54,454 bases of DNA, taken from NCBI GenBank assembly GCA_012729535.1, contig JAAYCY010000081.1:1-54454 (forward strand), given 5' to 3'. The number at the start of each line of letters is the position of its first letter. Position 1 is the first letter of the stretch. The translations under genes and the position numbers were made by a program. The DNA is from Methanomicrobiales archaeon. GTDB lineage: Archaea > Halobacteriota > Methanomicrobia > Methanomicrobiales > Methanospirillaceae. The notes beneath the pieces are model-generated. The model worked only from the letters and a program-made list of their open reading frames with translations, did not search any database and was not told where the DNA came from. Shown one piece after another: positions 10,340-19,431 of the stretch.

Positions 10340-10735
10340 GGCTCTTCGTCAGTTTCAGTGCGTATGATGTAGTTTGAATGAAATAATGACAATATGACTA
10401 TTGCTGAAGAATTATTTCGTTCAGCCCTGCACCTGACTGCTCCCAGGATAATTTCATCATTAACATTTAATGAAGGAGAAAGAAAACTTGACATCTGGTT
10501 AGATTTTCCAGAAGGTTCAAAATTTTCTTGTCCTGAATGTAATGCATTAGATTATCCTGTTCATGATACAAACAAACGGACCTGGCGTCATTTTGATTTT
10601 TTCGAACACCAAACATATCTTCACGGTAGAATTCATCGAATCATTTGTCCTCATTGTGGTGTTCGACAAGTAAATGTCCCTTGGGCAAGAGAAAAAAGTG
10701 GTTTCACACTTTTAATGGAAGCACTGTTCGTTCTT
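10340..10735 (+). mobile_element. Truncated ISL3-type insertion sequence (left end and transposase N-terminus)
   Basis: The fragment opens with GGCTCTTCGTCAGTTTC at 10340, which looks like a terminal inverted repeat of the ISL3 family (family ends begin with GGCTCTT, from memory). The transposase starts at 10394 and carries the family's N-terminal zinc finger: CPEC near residue 49, CPHC near 85, then VNVPWAREKSGFTLLMEAL. After about residue 114 the reading runs into the reversed sequence of an MFS transporter gene, so the catalytic core and right end are missing. Only one end remains, and the element cannot move by itself. Confidence 0.75.
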
Positions 10736-11639
10736 TTTGTACAAACCATGCAAGAAAGACGGAAAAACCTGAAAGCATGAGGCCGACCATTATCTGGTAA
10801 CGGGGATCCTGTTTATCTGCCATTTTACCAAAAAACGGCTTTGTAAGTGCGATTGAAAGAACCTGCACGGCAAAGAATATCCCGATAAGGTATGCCTCAA
10901 ATCCCTGACTTATCAGATAAACCGGGAAAAATGTTTCAAATGCTCCAAATATAAAATAAGTTGCCATATCTACATAAGCAGTGGCACGGAGCCGGCAATC
11001 GGTCCAGAATATCTAAAGACTTTTCACAAATACATCAAGAGTAAGTGTTACATCTATTCCCTTCATATCTCCGGGAATACGGAAGATCAAAATACAGACA
11101 ATCAAACCGGCAACAAAAGCAGCGATATAAACGCTCTGGTACCTGAAAAGACCGGGTGTTATCGCAAAAAATGAAATGAGCAGGCCACCAATAAGAGGAG
11201 ATAGGGTCCGGCCATATAATGTTGCAGAAGAATACTGGCCGATTCGTTCTCCTTTCGTGACAGAAAACCGTTCTGCGATGATTGCAGATATCACCGGTCC
11301 GAGAATCGCCGTTGCCATACCATGAAAAAACCGGACCGGTATGAGCATAAGGGGATCGGCGATGAAAAGATAAAGAAGCGGAGCGGTGAGGAATATTCCT
11401 CCGGCGAAAAGGAGCATCCGTCGCCTCCCCAGACGATCTGATATAACTCCCACCGGAAAACTCAAAAGAATTCCGGCAATGGGCGATATTACAGATATCA
11501 ACCCGATGAGGGCATCATTTGCTCCAAGAGAAGATGCATAGAGGGGGAGGACAGGGTTTTTTGAGATGGTGGTGGAGAAGATTGCAAGAAAACCAATAAT
11601 TGAGAGCTGGATAATATATGCCCTGTTGGTAAGACTCAT
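10736..11639 (-). pseudogene. Broken MFS transporter
   Basis: The minus strand encodes a major facilitator superfamily exporter. The first 208 codons (ATG at 11639) include the MFS loop motif GVISDRLGRRRML and about six helices. A TAG at 11013-11015 ends the frame, but the same frame stays open and continues the protein (TAYVDMATYFIFGAFETFFP, then KPFFGKMADKQDPRYQ, the second half's loop motif). The gene then runs into the truncated IS near 10735 and lacks its last helices. It thus has an internal stop and a lost 3' end. Pyrrolysine at the TAG is unlikely (see rejected items). Confidence 0.8.
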
Positions 11640-11696
11640 AGAATAATATGTATCATATATTCATATAAATTCAGCAACCAAATACATTTTTTTATG

Positions 11697-12422
11697 TTAT
11701 AATTTTACTCTCCTGAACAACTTCACATTGATAGATACCACGAATATCGTCAGAATTACCAGGATTAGTATACTTTGTCCGGGAATGAGCCCGGCGGTAA
11801 CATCCCGGATTGAATCAATGGCAATACTCAATGGATTTATATGAGCAGGAATCCGGAGCCATTCAGGCATGGAAGAATACGGCATCATTGCACTTGATGT
11901 GAAAAAAAGAGGCATCGTAATCATTGCAGTGACTGCTGCATAACTATCATGTTCACCGATGGATATAGCAAGGGTTGTGGTTACCGATGAGAGCAGACAT
12001 CCAAAGAGTATCAGGATCAGATACACTCCGATGATTTGTAAAGGAGAATATATCGGAACACCTAGTAAAAAAGCCAGTACGAGAATGATTGTTGACTGGA
12101 TTATTCCCCTTATGGTGGTAACAAGAATTTTTCCAAAGAGTATGGACTCACGGGACGGTGGAAGAGCCATAAATTTATTGTAAAATCCAAGAATTTTGTC
12201 CATGATAATAAGTGCTCCTCCCTGCATCGATGCCGATAATGTTGTCATTACTAATATTCCGGGAGTGACAAAAGCAAGGTAATTATCTGTGAAAGTTACT
12301 GGAAGAGCCAGTCCGACAAAGATAAGCCATGCTGCCGGAGCGACCAGGGCTGATATAAAACCCCATTTTCCTCGAAACCAGCGGATAAGGTCGCGAACAC
12401 AATAAATTATGATTGCATTCAT
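11697..12422 (-). CDS. ABC-2 type transporter permease
   Basis: This 241-residue membrane protein of the ABC-2 family has about six helices. It is typical of daunorubicin-type exporters: FRGKWGFISALVAPAAWLIF near the N-terminus, FLGVPIYSPLQIIGVYLIL in the middle, and the family segment LRIPAHINPLSIAIDSIRDV near the C-terminus. The start overlaps the stop of the ATPase gene upstream by four bases (ATGA), so the two form one transporter. The substrate is unknown; family members expel drugs or lipids. Confidence 0.85.
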   Translation of the reverse strand: MNAIIIYCVRDLIRWFRGKWGFISALVAPAAWLIFVGLALPVTFTDNYLAFVTPGILVMTTLSASMQGGALIIMDKILGFYNKFMALPPSRESILFGKILVTTIRGIIQSTIILVLAFLLGVPIYSPLQIIGVYLILILFGCLLSSVTTTLAISIGEHDSYAAVTAMITMPLFFTSSAMMPYSSMPEWLRIPAHINPLSIAIDSIRDVTAGLIPGQSILILVILTIFVVSINVKLFRRVKL

Positions 12423-13378
12423 CTTCTCTTCCCAAGCATATTTCTGTACGTGCTCATATTCATCGGCCTTGTATCTTCATTGTCGTCGACAAGATGAAGA
12501 AATACGTCATCCAGGGTAGGTTTTCTTACATAGAGTGAATGGAGTGTTAACCCCTGAGACAAAACCTCACGGTGAATTAGTTCTGATGCCCTCTGCCCAT
12601 CATGAGCGAGAAATGTAATTTCATCTTCCTGCTGCCCGATGAACCGGATATCCGGGATATTACTAAAGGAAAAATTCCCTTTAATGGTAGCGACGATGAT
12701 ATCTCCGCTTATTATGGTCTTAAGTGAAGCAGGAGTATCACATTTCCGTACCCTTCCCTTATCAATAAAGGCGATCCGGTCACAATTCCGGTCAGCCTCA
12801 TCCATGTAATGAGTGGTAACAAAAACGGTCATTCCTTTTTTCTTAAGCGAACGAATATGATCCCAGATCTTTCTCCGTGCTGCAACGTCAAGTCCTACGG
12901 TTGGTTCATCAAGAAAGAGAACTTGTGGATCATGAACAAGAGCCTGGGCCAGTTCAAGACGTCTTCTCATTCCTCCGGAGTACGTTTTGACATAGTCATC
13001 CGCTCTCTCGGCTAAATCCAGAACTCCGATCACCTCATCAGTCATCTCCTTTGGACGGCTGACCCCGTATAATTCAGCAAAAAACCGGACATTTTCACGT
13101 CCGGTCAGGCGAACATCCAGTGCCATATCCTGGGGAACATAACTGATATGTTCCCGGACTTTTTTTGGGTATTTGACCACATCAATCCCGCAAACAGATG
13201 CAGTCCCTTTTGTCGGTTCAAGAAGCGTTGTGAACATGAGAACCGTTGTGGTCTTTCCGGACCCGTTCGGACCTAAAAGACCAAAGATCTCATTTCCCAC
13301 ATCAATATTCATTGAATCTACTGCACAGAGATTCCCGTAATTGCAGGTGAGATCCTCTGCAATTAGTGTTGAACTCAT
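12419..13378 (-). CDS. ABC-2 type transporter ATP-binding protein (DrrA-like)
   Basis: This 319-residue ATPase has Walker A GPNGSGKTT (about residues 35-43), Q-loop YVPQDMAL, signature YSGGMRRRLELAQAL and Walker B VLFLDEPTVGLD. The H-loop is in VTTHYMDEADR. The C-terminal region about residues 225-300, ending in the LHSLYVRKPTLDDVFLHL segment, is characteristic of DrrA-type drug exporters. It is the first gene of a two-gene unit with the permease that overlaps it by four bases. Confidence 0.87.
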   Translation of the reverse strand: MSSTLIAEDLTCNYGNLCAVDSMNIDVGNEIFGLLGPNGSGKTTTVLMFTTLLEPTKGTASVCGIDVVKYPKKVREHISYVPQDMALDVRLTGRENVRFFAELYGVSRPKEMTDEVIGVLDLAERADDYVKTYSGGMRRRLELAQALVHDPQVLFLDEPTVGLDVAARRKIWDHIRSLKKKGMTVFVTTHYMDEADRNCDRIAFIDKGRVRKCDTPASLKTIISGDIIVATIKGNFSFSNIPDIRFIGQQEDEITFLAHDGQRASELIHREVLSQGLTLHSLYVRKPTLDDVFLHLVDDNEDTRPMNMSTYRNMLGKRR

Positions 13379-13682
13379 ATTTTCATCAATTGTAATTCGT
13401 TATGGATATTGTTAATAATTCAGATATCTTTTCGATATTGCCCATATTAACCATCTCATCCGGTGAAATTCGGATCTGATGGAATACAGGGTTAAAGAAA
13501 TTTAAATTCCGGACTATAACGAAAATATGTTAGAATTCCGACTATTTTTGATTGAATCATATTAAAAAAATAGAGGTCAAGGTTAATATGAATATTCAAA
13601 AAAATTTGTGTACTTAATTACATAAATTTTGCCTATTTTCAGAATATTATTGCAAATGACGTTTCAGAAAAATCAGAATCAC

Positions 13683-13729
13683 AATTTGAATATGACGAAC
13701 CACATCAACTTAATATTCAAATTTTTTTT
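13683..13729. promoter_or_regulatory. 11-base inverted repeat followed by T-run, before the nickel operon
   Basis: AATTTGAATAT (13683-13693) and ATATTCAAATT (13713-13723) are perfect inverted copies separated by 19 bases, and the right arm runs into eight T (13722-13729). It lies 130 bases before the DUF4198 gene. It could be an operator for a dimeric regulator or a terminator-like hairpin. The whole 13379-13858 stretch is otherwise gene-free and AT-rich. Confidence 0.45.
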
Positions 13730-13858: not shown

Positions 13859-14503
13859 ATGAAAGAATATAATCTCGAATTAATGATCCAGGGACATGAA
13901 ATCTGGATGGAGCCGACAAAAGAAGACAATGACAGTGTCAGTGTTGACCTTTTATTCGGCCATAACATGCGTATTGATGGCATTGCGGACAAATCACGGT
14001 TCCTGACCACATATTTCTCTCCGGATGAGAAACAAGGGGAGATTAATCTTGTATCCGCTGAAGATCGCCATTACCTGAACTTCAATCCCACAACTGAAGG
14101 ATATTATTCAGTATATGCGGATATGGGAGCGGTGATATACTCGATAAACGAAGATGGGTACAATAAGGGACCAAAGCACATGTTCAAGGGGGTCACCTAT
14201 TCCGGAGCATTTCACCAGATGGCAAAAACCATTGTCCCTGTTGGAAATGTAGGAGAATTTCAGGGAAAGCCACTTCACGGAATTCTGGAAATTGTCCCCC
14301 GGAGAGTTTTGAATAGTGTCGGAAGCGAGGTAGAACCTACAGTATACTATGAAGACAAACCTCTCACGGGTGTTGATGTGAAGGCTATATCCGGAGCGGA
14401 AGGAAAAGAGATAGCATGCATTCCAACAGATCAAAATGGAGTTGTCACAATTCCCCTCTCCGCCCAGGGAAAATGGATGTTTCTGGCCAGATATGCAGAT
14501 TAG
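13859..14503 (+). CDS. DUF4198-like protein, putative nickel/cobalt handling
   Basis: This 214-residue protein resembles DUF4198 (PF10670) proteins, which accompany nickel or cobalt transporters. The hallmark segment GHEIWMEPT lies at residues 12-20, and a beta-rich C-terminal half carries YYEDKPLTGVDVKAIS and TDQNGVVTIPLSAQGKWMFL. Most relatives have a signal peptide before the HExW segment, but here only eleven residues precede it and none is hydrophobic enough for export. It is followed 65 bases later by the CooC and CooT genes on the same strand, which supports a nickel role. Binding itself is inference. Confidence 0.65.
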   Translation: MKEYNLELMIQGHEIWMEPTKEDNDSVSVDLLFGHNMRIDGIADKSRFLTTYFSPDEKQGEINLVSAEDRHYLNFNPTTEGYYSVYADMGAVIYSINEDGYNKGPKHMFKGVTYSGAFHQMAKTIVPVGNVGEFQGKPLHGILEIVPRRVLNSVGSEVEPTVYYEDKPLTGVDVKAISGAEGKEIACIPTDQNGVVTIPLSAQGKWMFLARYAD

Positions 14504-14568
14504 ACAAAAAAGGTAAGCGAAGAATTTGATGAGTCGGTTTTTATTTCAACTCTGGTCCTTGATGTGAA

Positions 14569-15364
14569 ATGAAAAAGATTATTTTTACCGGAAAAGGAGG
14601 GGTAGGCAAAACCACCATCCTTTCCAATCTGGTTCGTATACTGACTAATGAAGGACACAATATACTTGCAATAGATTGTGACCCAAGTATGAATCTTGCA
14701 ATGTCACTTGGAATTCCATTATCTGATATTACTTCCCTTGCAGAGGATAAAACCAGGGTTCAGCAGCAACTGGAAAATGAACTTCGGGACAGAGAACACG
14801 ATGAAGACGATGATGAGGAACATGAACATGGGGTAGTACCGGTAGGAAGTCTCTCTGATTATTTCATGAAGACTCAGGACAGAGTGCCTGGTGGTTATGG
14901 GGACCATTCCATATGGAGGAGCAGGATGTCTCTGTGCCCCTATCTCTCTCGTAAAAATGCTTGTACATTACCTGAGTTCAGGTCCGGGAGATTATGATTA
15001 CATCATCGTTGATTCACAGGCAGGAGTGGAAATCTTCGGCAGAGGGCTTGCCTCAGAATTTGATCTGACCCTTGTTGTAACCGAACCAACACCCAAATCA
15101 GTAGAGGTCGCAAAGCACGGATCAAAACTGGCAAAGGATCTTGGGGTTAAAAAGCTGGTAGCAATTATAAATAAAGTGGAAGTAGAAGATGATCTTGAGT
15201 TCGCATCTCATGAACTAAAGGGATATGTTGACCAGGTCATTTCAATCCAGTATGATAACTCGGTAAAAAATGCCGATAAAAAAGGAGTACTTCTTCTTGA
15301 TTTGTATCCGGACTCTCCCGTCCTCCATGATATCAACCAGGTTAAACAGTCCATTACAGAGTAA
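14569..15364 (+). pseudogene. cooC: CooC-type nickel-insertion ATPase, frameshifted
   Basis: CooC uses ATP to load nickel into carbon monoxide dehydrogenase. The first frame (14569-about 14888) carries the deviant Walker A GKGGVGKTT (residues 8-16), AIDCDPS, and an unusual run of His and acidic residues (REHDEDDDEEHEHG, about residues 75-88). The second frame, open from about 14888 to 15364, continues with VVMGTIPYGGAGCLCAP, which has the CxC metal site of CooC, then DYIIVDSQAGVEIFGRG. The frames differ by one base near 14881-14892. Joined they give about 264 residues, the normal family length, and no other damage is seen. It is either a recent inactivation, a sequencing error or recoding. 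Confidence 0.8.
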
Positions 15365-15369
15365 TAAAA

Positions 15370-15576
15370 ATGTGTGAATTTAAAGTATACCTTGTGGGTG
15401 AGAACCCGGAAGAAAAGGAACAAGTCGCAAAAGATATCGTTGTTGCGAAAATCCGGGATAATCGCATTGTTCTTCTCAATGTTATGGGTGAGCCTGTATA
15501 CGTGGAATCAACTTCCATTCGGGAAGTAAATACCATGACACAGGAGTTAATCCTTCAGAAACCATCTATTTCGTGA
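15370..15576 (+). CDS. cooT: CooT-family nickel-binding protein
   Basis: This 68-residue protein matches the CooT family (PF10133) in length and in its N-terminus MCEFKVYLV. In the Rhodospirillum CooT the Cys at position 2 helps bind nickel, and it is present here. The rest, VAKIRDNRIVLLNVMGEPVY, fits the small beta-barrel fold. It starts five bases after the cooC stop, so it shares that transcript. Together with CooC and DUF4198 it forms a nickel-delivery set. No carbon monoxide dehydrogenase gene lies in the window. Confidence 0.78.
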   Translation: MCEFKVYLVGENPEEKEQVAKDIVVAKIRDNRIVLLNVMGEPVYVESTSIREVNTMTQELILQKPSIS

Positions 15577-15732
15577 TGAGACAACGCAGTAAGATGACTT
15601 ACTGCCTCTTCTCCGTTCTGTTCCAGGAGTATCATCCGGAATTACAAACAGGAGATCGAAGAATACTGGACAAAAGATTGTTCATTTTATGATAATTATC
15701 CGGAGCACGGTCTTACAAAAAAAGAAGAAGAA

Positions 15733-16416
15733 TTGTGGGAGGAGTTTCTCCATGCGGAAATTGGGAACAAGCCACTTAGAATCCTTGATGTAGGGACTGG
15801 AACCGGTTCTATCTCACTTATTCTTTCTAAGTTAGGTCATGAAGTGACAGGTATCGATCTTTCTCCGGGAATGCTTTCAGTTTGTGAAAGAAAAGCAGGG
15901 GAGAGGAGTCTTACCCTGGACCTTCATGTGGGAGATGCTGAAGCATTGCCATTTCCGGATAATGATTTTGATATGATTACCAGCAGGTGGGTGCTCTGGA
16001 CTCTTCTGCAACCTGAAATCGCCATTAATGAGTGGAAACGGGTCATTAAACCCGGAGGAAAAATCCTTGCATTTGATGTCAAGACTCATGATTTTGGTAA
16101 TATGTCAATGATGAAAAAATTCATGCAGTTTGTTTCAAAAAAATTAATTTCCATTCAGGACGGGCGAAAGCCGGATAGTTATTCATATAAACAGGAGATT
16201 AATGATTCTCTCCCATTGTCTTACAGGAATGTGGATTGTTTTTATAGTCAGGTTACTCTTTTCATAAATGCCGGGCTTGAAGAAGTATCTGCAAAGATGG
16301 TAAAACCACTGACGGTAATGCAACATGAGAAGCTCGATAAACCATGGAGATATAAGATTGGGAGGAGAAAGTATGGTGACTGGCATTGTATCTCCGGAAG
16401 AAAACAGAGTCGATAG
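15733..16416 (+). CDS. Class I SAM-dependent methyltransferase, start codon missing
   Basis: The protein has motif I ILDVGTGTGSISLIL, then GIDLSPGMLSVCERKA, DAEALPFPDNDFDMITSRWV and RVIKPGGKILAFDV, the order of UbiE-like methyltransferases. From TTG at 15733 it has 227 residues. The same frame is open upstream to about 15597 and encodes plausible family N-terminus (EIEEYWTKDCSFYDNYPEHG, then LTKKEEELWEEFL) but contains no ATG, GTG or TTG before a stop. The true start therefore seems lost, perhaps by a frameshift that cut the link to the ATG at 15577. The catalytic part is complete; function is uncertain. Confidence 0.7.
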   Translation: MWEEFLHAEIGNKPLRILDVGTGTGSISLILSKLGHEVTGIDLSPGMLSVCERKAGERSLTLDLHVGDAEALPFPDNDFDMITSRWVLWTLLQPEIAINEWKRVIKPGGKILAFDVKTHDFGNMSMMKKFMQFVSKKLISIQDGRKPDSYSYKQEINDSLPLSYRNVDCFYSQVTLFINAGLEEVSAKMVKPLTVMQHEKLDKPWRYKIGRRKYGDWHCISGRKQSR

Positions 16417-17228: not shown

Positions 17229-17576
17229 TTAATCATCACATATCAAAGATATCTGCTCTTTGAATTTTGGAATCTGTTCTTTAATTATAATCCATAATGT
17301 GCCAGTGTCAACTCCGAAATATCTGTGAATTACAATATTCCTTACACCAACGATTTTTGTCCAGGGGATTTCCGGAAATTTTTCACGAATTTCCTGCGGA
17401 ATTTGAGAGACAGCCTCTCCGATTATCTCTATATTTCTAATAACTGCATCAATCGTTTTTTGATCTTTTTCAAACTCATCTTTAGAGTAATCTCCAATAT
17501 ATTCTGAAATCCTCCCAGATGCTTCGATAATATCACTAAAAATTAGTTTGAAATCACGCCTTGACATATATTGCAT
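17229..17576 (-). CDS. hepT: HepT-type RNase toxin (DUF86)
   Basis: This 115-residue HEPN-domain protein is the toxin half of an MntA-HepT pair. The catalytic RxxxxHxY motif is visible as RNIVIHRYF at about residues 79-87, and the helical segment ESEYIGD-like ([17 protein letters not shown]) and [13 protein letters not shown] match the family. The length is normal. Its start lies 23 bases inside the end of the upstream mntA gene. HepT cleaves RNA and is silenced when MntA adds AMP to the Tyr of this motif in characterised systems. Confidence 0.85.
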
Positions 17577-17925
17577 CCTCTAATATTCCGGAATATAGGC
17601 GTTCTTTCTGCATTACTCCTGCTTTTAAGATGAGATCAATGTTAATACCAAATAGTTTTTCAAGGTCATCCCTGAGATCAACAACTTCCCATCCAATTGG
17701 CTCATAAAAGTCAACCATTATATCCAGATCGCTTTCAGCGGTTTCTTCTCCTCTGGCATATGAACCAATTATACTCATCTCTTTTATTTTGTATTTTTGT
17801 TGAAATGAGGAGAAATTCTCATTCAGTATTGTAATTATCTTTTGTAATTTCTTTTTTTTCTTATCAATTTCCATGATTTTATTTTCGGTTAGTTCAGATG
17901 GCATATCGGAGTTCATTTGATGCAA
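17554..17925 (-). CDS. mntA: MntA-type nucleotidyltransferase antitoxin
   Basis: This 123-residue minimal nucleotidyltransferase has the core motif [20 protein letters not shown], which is the GSx10DxD active site. A third acidic residue is expected near IDLILK. Family members modify HepT toxins by AMPylation. An extended N-terminus with a Lys-rich helix (residues about 12-25) precedes the domain. The gene runs into hepT with a 23-base overlap and both look intact, in contrast to the damaged pair at 52586-52966. Confidence 0.85.
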
Positions 17926-18286: not shown

Positions 18287-19431
18287 TTATATCTCCTGTG
18301 CGGCAATGAGCGAAGCGTACATCCCATCCAAAGCCATCAGTTCTTGGTGTGTCCCCTGCTCAATTATCTCTCCCTGATTGAGCACAAGGATCTTATCTGC
18401 ATGTACCACCGTGCTGAGCCGATGTGCAATCATAAACACAGTTCTCCCTTTCATCAATTCCCGAATGGTATTCCGGACCATCAATTCTGTTCCCGTATCG
18501 AGGTTACTGGTCGCCTCATCCATGATAAGGACCGGAGCATTTTTGAGAATTGCCCGGGCGATTGCTACTCTCTGACGTTCTCCGCCTGAAAGGCGAATAC
18601 CCCGCTCGCCTACAAGCGTTTCGTAACCCTCCGGAGTCCCTCTATGAAATCATGTATCCTGGCAAACTTTGCTGCCTGCTCTATCTCCTGATCGGTCGCA
18701 TCAGCTCTTCCCACCCGGATATTTTCCCGGATAGATGTATTGAACAGAAAGATATCCTGGGTAACAATGGAAATGGTTTTCCGCAGATCCGAAAGACGGA
18801 GATCCCGGATATCATGCCCATCAAGCCTGATAATCCCCTTTTCAGGATCCCAAAACCGCATGAGAAGATGGGTTAGGGTTGTCTTTCCCGCTCCTGTCAT
18901 TCCAACAATTGCAGCAGTAGTACCTGAAGGGATCGAGAATAAAACTCCTTTCAGTACATATGGTTCCGTTTTCCCGTATCTAAACCAGATATCCGAGACC
19001 TCAAGGGTTGGAGCAGTTGAAATTGTAACTGAAGGAGTACCATTCTCACTTACCACGGGAGTATCATCCATGACAGCGAAAAATCGTTTTGCCCCGGCAA
19101 TTGTCATACTGAGTTGTTTTGAAACCTCGACAACTTCCTTCATTGCTGTGAATGCCCCGGCGGATAAAATTACAGTAATTGGAAGAAAGAAGGAATTTAT
19201 CTCACCCATTTGAGTAAGGATAGTTGCTACCACGAGAATAATTACAATACCACCAGATACGAGAACAGCATACGAAGCGGATGCACAGCGAGACAAATAC
19301 CCGGTGTAATGCCCGATGCCTCTTCTGCCCGCACCCGGAGATGAAAAAACGAGCGGAAATGCCGGATCAGATGATCGACAAGATCTTATCTGAAACGGTT
19401 CCCTACCTGGAGGGAGTTTCCCGATTTTCAT
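18287..19431 (-). pseudogene. Decayed ABC exporter (fused membrane and ATPase domains)
   Basis: This is the remainder of a multidrug/lipid-type ABC exporter half-transporter. The 3' part carries Walker B and after ([11 protein letters not shown], then [20 protein letters not shown]). The signature ([16 protein letters not shown]) lies in that same frame upstream. Walker A (GMTGAGKTTLTHLLMRFW) is in another frame, joined after a one-base shift near 18625. Upstream of about 19260 the membrane domain is again out of frame: DLVDHLIRHFRSFFHLRVRA is readable in a third frame. Sequence homology stops around 19440, so the first membrane helices are lost. Normal length would be near 580 residues. Confidence 0.85.

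Follow-up and report, generated by a model that had tools for sequence, protein, structure and literature searches.

A DUF4198-CooC-CooT gene cassette of methanogens and ANME-1 as a possible cytoplasmic nickel relay, with a broken copy in a Methanomicrobiales genome

Gene order and lesions at the locus

We analyzed a 54,454-nucleotide stretch of archaeal DNA (the window), contig C74 of a Methanomicrobiales genome (G000) of 3.09 Mb in 86 contigs, which is 96.8% complete. At positions 13859-15576 on the plus strand lie, in order, a DUF4198 gene, a CooC-like MinD-type P-loop ATPase that is read in two frames, and CooT. A sequence-only reading had described three nickel-linked families in a row, and the matches to PF10670, the CooC-like ATPase, and PF10133 agree with this description. 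The features of the locus and of two nearby genes are as follows.

13859..14503, plus strand: DUF4198 (NikK-fold) gene, 214 readable codons with a TAG end; PF10670 at 95.5 bits, cut-off 34
14501..14503, plus strand: premature in-frame TAG in DUF4198; the profile match continues to model position 236 with "1 TAG" inside
14504..14572, plus strand: untranslated DUF4198 tail, 22 codons and a TGA, which would hold the last beta-strand (strand 225-236 of a relative's AF2 model)
14569..14889, plus strand: N-terminal piece of the CooC-like ATPase, with Walker A
14791..14832, plus strand: His/acidic stretch of CooC, residues 75-88
14884..14894, plus strand: CooC frameshift, two bases fewer than in homologues by codon comparison
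14891..15364, plus strand: C-terminal piece of the CooC-like ATPase, with CxC motif GCLC
15370..15576, plus strand: CooT, intact, Cys2 kept; PF10133 at 45.1 bits, cut-off 27
15733..16416, plus strand: SAM methyltransferase (UbiE-like), resembling genes that adjoin the cassette elsewhere
10704..11639, minus strand: MFS transporter pseudogene, with TAG where the sister genome G012 has CAG, and with its 3' end missing

Homology extends the methyltransferase reading upstream of the TTG at 15733 (window 15595-15735), with no ATG, GTG, or TTG at the start position of the homologues. Further downstream, at 17229-17925, a HepT-like ribonuclease gene (PF01934) overlaps a nucleotidyltransferase gene (PF01909) in a toxin-antitoxin-like pair.

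The CooC gene had been called broken, and comparison with in-frame homologues bears this out: the reading changes frame near 14884-14894, and no single open reading frame spans the gene. The one-base difference reported at this junction describes the two frames correctly, but the sequence itself is two bases short, as four in-frame homologues show a complete codon at a point where the window retains a single base. The net change of frame is +1, and there is no homopolymer at this point. All other motifs had been judged perfect. The Walker A sequence GKGGVGKTT, of the deviant GKGGxGKT type, is indeed present in the first CooC piece and the CxC metal pair (GCLC) in the second, but an in-frame TAG in DUF4198 had been overlooked.

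This TAG (14501-14503) leaves the DUF4198 domain incomplete, falling before its last strand. In an AlphaFold2 model of a Methanothrix homologue (L070, pLDDT 89), the last beta-strand comprises residues 225-236, within the part lost in the window. Past the TAG, 22 more codons follow in frame, 18 of them (counted by eye) identical to the intact homologue in genome G039, and the resumed frame ends at a TGA overlapping the CooC start. The profile search likewise reads the gene as full length with one TAG inside, and the window protein has 60% identity to the G039 homologue. Since DUF4198 is broken too, a single sequencing slip in an otherwise healthy operon does not describe the locus. A backup DUF4198 copy was considered and rejected, as the genome holds a single match; CooT is likewise single.

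We also rejected a pyrrolysine reading of the TAG, because this genome gave no match to pylD and, for pylS, three matches with none above the cut-off. TAG ends ordinary genes as well. It terminates 6 of the 33 window ORFs of at least 170 aa, three of the six being the shortened MFS, DUF4198, and ABC readings, and the gene at 4164-5864 of L115 ends in TAG at 566 aa vs. 568 aa in G039. Judged from these sequence data, TAG is a stop codon in the analyzed genome.

Decay or artefact in the window

The sister genome G012 matches the window at 87% nucleotide identity over 10753-13683 and then passes into CooT within ~90 bases. DUF4198 and CooC are absent at this place in G012, and CooT is kept there. 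Across the 12 genomes of the genus, five of them <90% complete, DUF4198 of this type occurs in two, broken in G000 and intact in G039. Next door in the window, the MFS gene has, besides its TAG, lost its end near an ISL3-type transposase remnant (10394-11639). The operon in the window is thus probably decaying, because G012 is without DUF4198 and CooC and the neighboring transporter is stopped and shortened. CooT has been constrained since the split from G012, given a dN/dS of 0.18 (68 codons, window vs. the G012 orthologue), which is an average since that split and not a measure of present-day selection. Three neighboring genes gave 0.06-0.11. In the CooT tree, support was weak at the placement of the window and G012 proteins relative to the cassette CooTs.

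An ABC transporter reading at 18287-19431 also lies in two pieces, apparently without its N-terminal part. Together with the MFS/ISL3 remnant, it looks like a sign of a decaying stretch from ~10.4 to 19.5 kb.

If the lesions were assembly or sequencing errors, DUF4198 and CooC would be intact in the organism and the operon would work. The source is one draft genome in 86 contigs, and conservation in frame persists past each lesion, so the lesions are either very recent or artefacts. Relative to G039, dN/dS was ~0.13 and 0.18 for the two CooC pieces, at dS values (2.4 and 1.3) near saturation. However, the two lesions differ in kind and lie in adjacent genes, that of CooC is outside any homopolymer, and a third gene next door, the MFS transporter, is broken by both nonsense and truncation. 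The sister genome is without the same DUF4198-CooC pair, and the cdh and cooS loci of the analyzed genome have open reading frames, with CooS over its cut-off. We consider error at both sites quite unlikely. Conservation past both lesions would also be expected if the genes were still functional by recoding, through TAG read-through and a programmed +1 frameshift or through a two-piece CooC. This seems very improbable given the pylD and pylS results and the ordinary genes that TAG ends. Moreover, no frame change occurs in the other cassette CooCs, which therefore hold no conserved shift signal, and the CooC junction consists of missing bases, not a slippery run. Real decay is instead favored by the G012 state, the constraint on CooT, the broken neighbors, and the open cdh and cooS loci. 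We infer that both lesions are real, and that the window copy is probably a recent pseudogene pair (DUF4198 and CooC) beside a surviving CooT.

Proteins and surroundings of the cassette

Ahead of the equivalent His, each of the 18 DUF4198 proteins compared, that of the window among them, has 10-25 residues, none of them forming a strongly hydrophobic stretch. These lengths rest on start codons assigned in this analysis, and L062, L069, and L073 also offer longer readings that begin further upstream. From the hydrophobicity of these residues at the assigned starts, none of the 18 has an apparent signal peptide that would leave an N-terminal His. The window protein had been thought to have lost its signal peptide; instead, the signal-peptide-less form appears to be a family trait. 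The cytoplasmic placement suggested along with it would fit all 18 proteins. Clear relatives with the same short N-terminus in unrelated contexts had been named as evidence that would tell against the original interpretation. Nine loci without CooC do carry it (three Methanosarcina-like genomes, five Methanothrix contigs, and one Methanoregula-like genome), but mostly beside metal-uptake-type genes.

His13 is present in 18/18 DUF4198 proteins and His35 in 17/18. In the known case from I. sakaiensis, DUF4198 is secreted and binds nickel via its N-terminal His and His18 with a Kd of 18 nM, as passages of PMC12537917 report. The L070 model aligned with this nickel-bound structure (9gcb) over 206 residues (Z 20.7, rmsd 2.9), the first aligned pair being residue 13 of the model and residue 1 of the chain, and the cassette protein is accordingly modeled, through this homologue, as having the NikK fold. 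Sequence alignments to 9gcb covered a part that leaves out the His35/His18 position. Because 10-25 residues precede His13, the alpha-amino ligand of the known nickel site is missing in the cassette DUF4198.

For the ATPase, a MinD/CooC fold is likewise predicted through the model of the L070 homologue, whose best PDB match was CooC1 (3kje, TM 0.72). An insert of His and acidic residues had been placed at about residues 75-88. Its position stands, whereas its reading as an insert does not. Measured from the SLGIP region to the VMG strand, the segment is 50-68 residues long in 12 cassette CooCs, with G039 alone reaching 68, and 50-56 residues long in 29 CooCs from outside the cassette; the window has 55 residues before the lesion. 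On these lengths we rejected a true insertion. By contrast, composition differed: the segment holds on average 3.67 His in the cassette CooCs vs. 0.17 in the others (2-5 in 12/12 vs. 0-2) and 13.8 vs. 8.6 Asp+Glu. Rank tests gave p ~2e-8 for His and ~1e-6 for Asp+Glu, values that are indicative only because the sequences are related. The control set of 29 is what remained of 31 rows after two cassette members were dropped. Aligning CooC homologues, the check proposed at the outset, thus revealed a composition common to the cassette clade, but a segment of similar length in other CooCs too.

A midpoint-rooted tree, with the window pieces left out, groups the 12 cassette CooCs in a single clade (support 0.94), separate from CooS-linked and cdh-linked CooCs, and the analyzed genome has both of these linked types too. 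Of the control CooCs, 21 of 29 fall in the clade with CooS-linked CooCs, a linkage read only in G000, G012, and G039. Among the 12 cassette and 29 other CooCs, the His/acidic clade was found only in this cassette. The stretch therefore reads as a similar-length replacement and a compositional mark of the cassette CooC clade. It could still be a disordered loop with no metal role: the L070 CooC model has some of its lowest confidence in the His/acidic segment (mean pLDDT 52 for residues 71-80) and in the CxC region, the letters and length of the segment vary, and the ANME-1 members L069 and L098 have only one His in its variable part. We hold this to be possible though doubtful, given the His content of every cassette CooC relative to the controls. 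In CooT, Cys2 was found in 17/17 proteins compared, and the window protein combines it with its PF10133 match.

Beyond the window, a contig scan with a DUF4198 alignment gave 14 loci, of which nine were in Methanothrix/Methanosaeta, two in Methanophagales/ANME-1, and three in Methanoregula. A phylum search (E up to 1e-10) found DUF4198 in 14 of 392 genomes, our own included, with some matches weak or partial. Leaving out repeats of the same genome, we examined 23 other DUF4198 stretches. CooC adjoins DUF4198 in 13 of them (L052, L060-L062, L067, L069-L073, L098-L100), and in two of these, L061 and L072, the contig breaks off within CooC; in the other 11, CooT follows (11/11). DUF4198 stands without CooC in nine (L054, L063-L066, L068, L101-L103), and L104 is cut inside DUF4198. 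Judged by gene order, Methanothrix, ANME-1, and Methanoregula carry the cassette intact.

We surveyed the neighbors in 24 stretches of 3-19 kb (window included), counting relatives at E up to 1e-6. A SAM methyltransferase was present in 12, a SBP_bac_5-type binding protein in 11 and its permease in 10, a FecB-type binding protein in eight, FecCD in five, NikR in two, and a LarC-like protein in one, so that roughly every second stretch has importer genes of the Nik/Opp type. A CdhA or CooS relative was found in 0/24, and we rejected the cassette as part of a CODH operon for the surveyed stretches. Among 11 importer proteins from six loci, the best NCBIfam match was a nickel transporter family for 10 and an oligopeptide family for that of L069; one of the 11 scored over the curated nickel-family cut-off and 10 below. 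Family membership, recurring gene order, and nickel-type neighbors are consistent with the nickel-delivery operon proposed in the sequence-only reading.

Several surroundings deserve description. At L054:7114-9658, a lone short DUF4198 lies between frhD (hydrogenase maturation protease) and HmdB, both over cut-off, and a NikR-like gene is in the same stretch, which looks like a nickel-limitation neighborhood; Hmd is used when nickel is scarce. On an ANME-1 contig (L069:44-2214), a NifH/NifD-type nitrogenase-like pair stands directly upstream of the cassette. We found no support for these as F430 genes, with 343 of 402 bits placing them under the CfbC cut-off. A second short DUF4198 group (RGHEIW) in L101-L103, presumably Methanosarcina-like genomes, has a SAM methyltransferase and a FecCD-type importer as neighbors but neither CooC nor CooT. 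SAM methyltransferases of the UbiE-like kind turn up repeatedly close to DUF4198 and importer genes (L052, L060, L062-L064, L067, L098, L100-L103), as if a methylated metal chelator were involved.

Proposed nickel relay and comparison with known systems

In the intact form pictured from relatives, nickel would enter via Nik/Opp-type ABC importers and be bound by a cytoplasmic, signal-peptide-less DUF4198 of NikK fold, through conserved His13 and His35, with His13 no longer N-terminal. It would then pass to an ATP-driven CooC dimer that holds the metal at its CxC pair; the flexible His/acidic segment could collect nickel, and CooT, with its Cys2, may serve as a small nickel buffer. The delivered nickel would reach a nickel enzyme, of which CODH/ACS is the likeliest single user. 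Nickel binding, the order of transfer, and the target enzyme are what we infer here. In the window, this relay would be out of order, with DUF4198 without its last strand, CooC split, and CooT kept. Because two of the three genes are broken, the window copy looks like a relay being lost, with the DUF4198-CooC pair disappearing from this lineage. We lean toward this account, an intact cytoplasmic nickel relay with a broken copy in the window, as reasonably probable. The broader proposal finds us evenly divided: an undescribed relay of methanogens and ANME-1 in which an internalized NikK, its N-terminal nickel ligand now internal, works with CooT and a dedicated CooC clade of His/acidic type, and whose link is to nickel import, not to CODH genes, with the window showing its loss and CooT left behind. 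Against the relay reading stand DUF4198 without CooC in nine of the 23 other stretches, and the importer proteins, 10/11 of them below nickel-family cut-offs and that of L069 best matched as an oligopeptide family.

CODH/ACS as the nickel user is only the likeliest single guess. CdhA is over cut-off in the analyzed genome and in none of the proteins of G012, which lacks the DUF4198-CooC pair. Still, four genus members (G024, G032, G046, and G052) have CdhA without the cassette, and this mismatch, together with the 24 stretches free of CODH genes, makes the target weak. CooT is also present without CdhA over cut-off in G012 and in G058 (84% complete), and the L054 and L069 neighbors add to the uncertainty of the guess. 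The intact cassette might instead serve another metal (zinc or cobalt), another nickel enzyme (hydrogenase or MCR/F430), or general nickel homeostasis. Zcp, with structures that contain zinc, cobalt, and copper, is among the closest structural matches, and the stretches without a CODH gene, the persistence of CooT in G012 and G058, and the L054 DUF4198 between genes for NiFe-hydrogenase maturation and HmdB, with NikR in the same stretch, all fit such a role. However, the NikR, LarC-like, and nickel-type importer neighbors speak against another metal, as does the description of CooC and CooT as nickel proteins in bacteria in passages of PMC6006190, and an F430 role is countered by the sub-threshold score of the L069 pair. 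We rate this alternative as rather unlikely.

Methanogens need several nickel enzymes, and the route of nickel from importers to enzymes is little known. A cassette away from CODH genes that contains a cytosolic version of a proven nickel-binding fold offers a concrete, testable relay. Moreover, a lineage with a decaying cassette but a kept CooT separates the role of CooT from those of DUF4198 and CooC. Passages of PMC6006190 call the functions of CooT and CooJ unclear and question whether all CODHs need CooC. Those of PMC13056359 report CooT from CODH operons of clades E and F alone and leave DUF4198 unnamed, and those of PMC11247825 name NikK, CooC, CooT, and CooJ for cable bacteria, where the import genes and the maturation genes are separate. 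Among the open-access matches listed, no paper joined DUF4198 or NikK with CooC/CooT in archaea. What emerges from gene order and phylogeny is a recurring, little-noticed cassette that joins a NikK-like protein of the cytosol to a CooC clade of its own.

Compared with CooC-CooT-CooJ in the CODH operon of Rhodospirillum rubrum, the cassette also has a CooC-type ATPase and CooT among three small nickel-linked proteins. However, it has no CODH gene nearby in the 24 stretches, DUF4198 stands where CooJ would be, its CooC belongs to a separate clade with a His/acidic segment, and two genes are broken in the window. The CooC1 of Carboxydothermus hydrogenoformans (3kje) has the deviant Walker A and the CxC pair in common with the cassette CooC and was the best structural match of the relative's model, whereas the cassette CooC has the His/acidic segment and no CODH link, in a genome with other, CooS- and cdh-linked, CooC types. 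Zcp (PDB 9mhi-9mho) is predicted to have the same fold as DUF4198 (Z 22-23, relative's model), but identity is ~20%, and the His mutated in 9mhk (29, 31, 142) are not at His13/His35 in the alignment. The molecule name of 9mhi, "Phosphoribosylglycinamide formyltransferase," was set aside as a depositor label, since the entry title says Zcp. The secreted NikK/DUF4198 of I. sakaiensis (9gcb) has its fold, as seen in the relative's model, and the aligned His in common with the cassette protein; by contrast, the cassette form is without an apparent signal peptide, its His is internal with the alpha-amino ligand unavailable, and it adjoins CooC and CooT.
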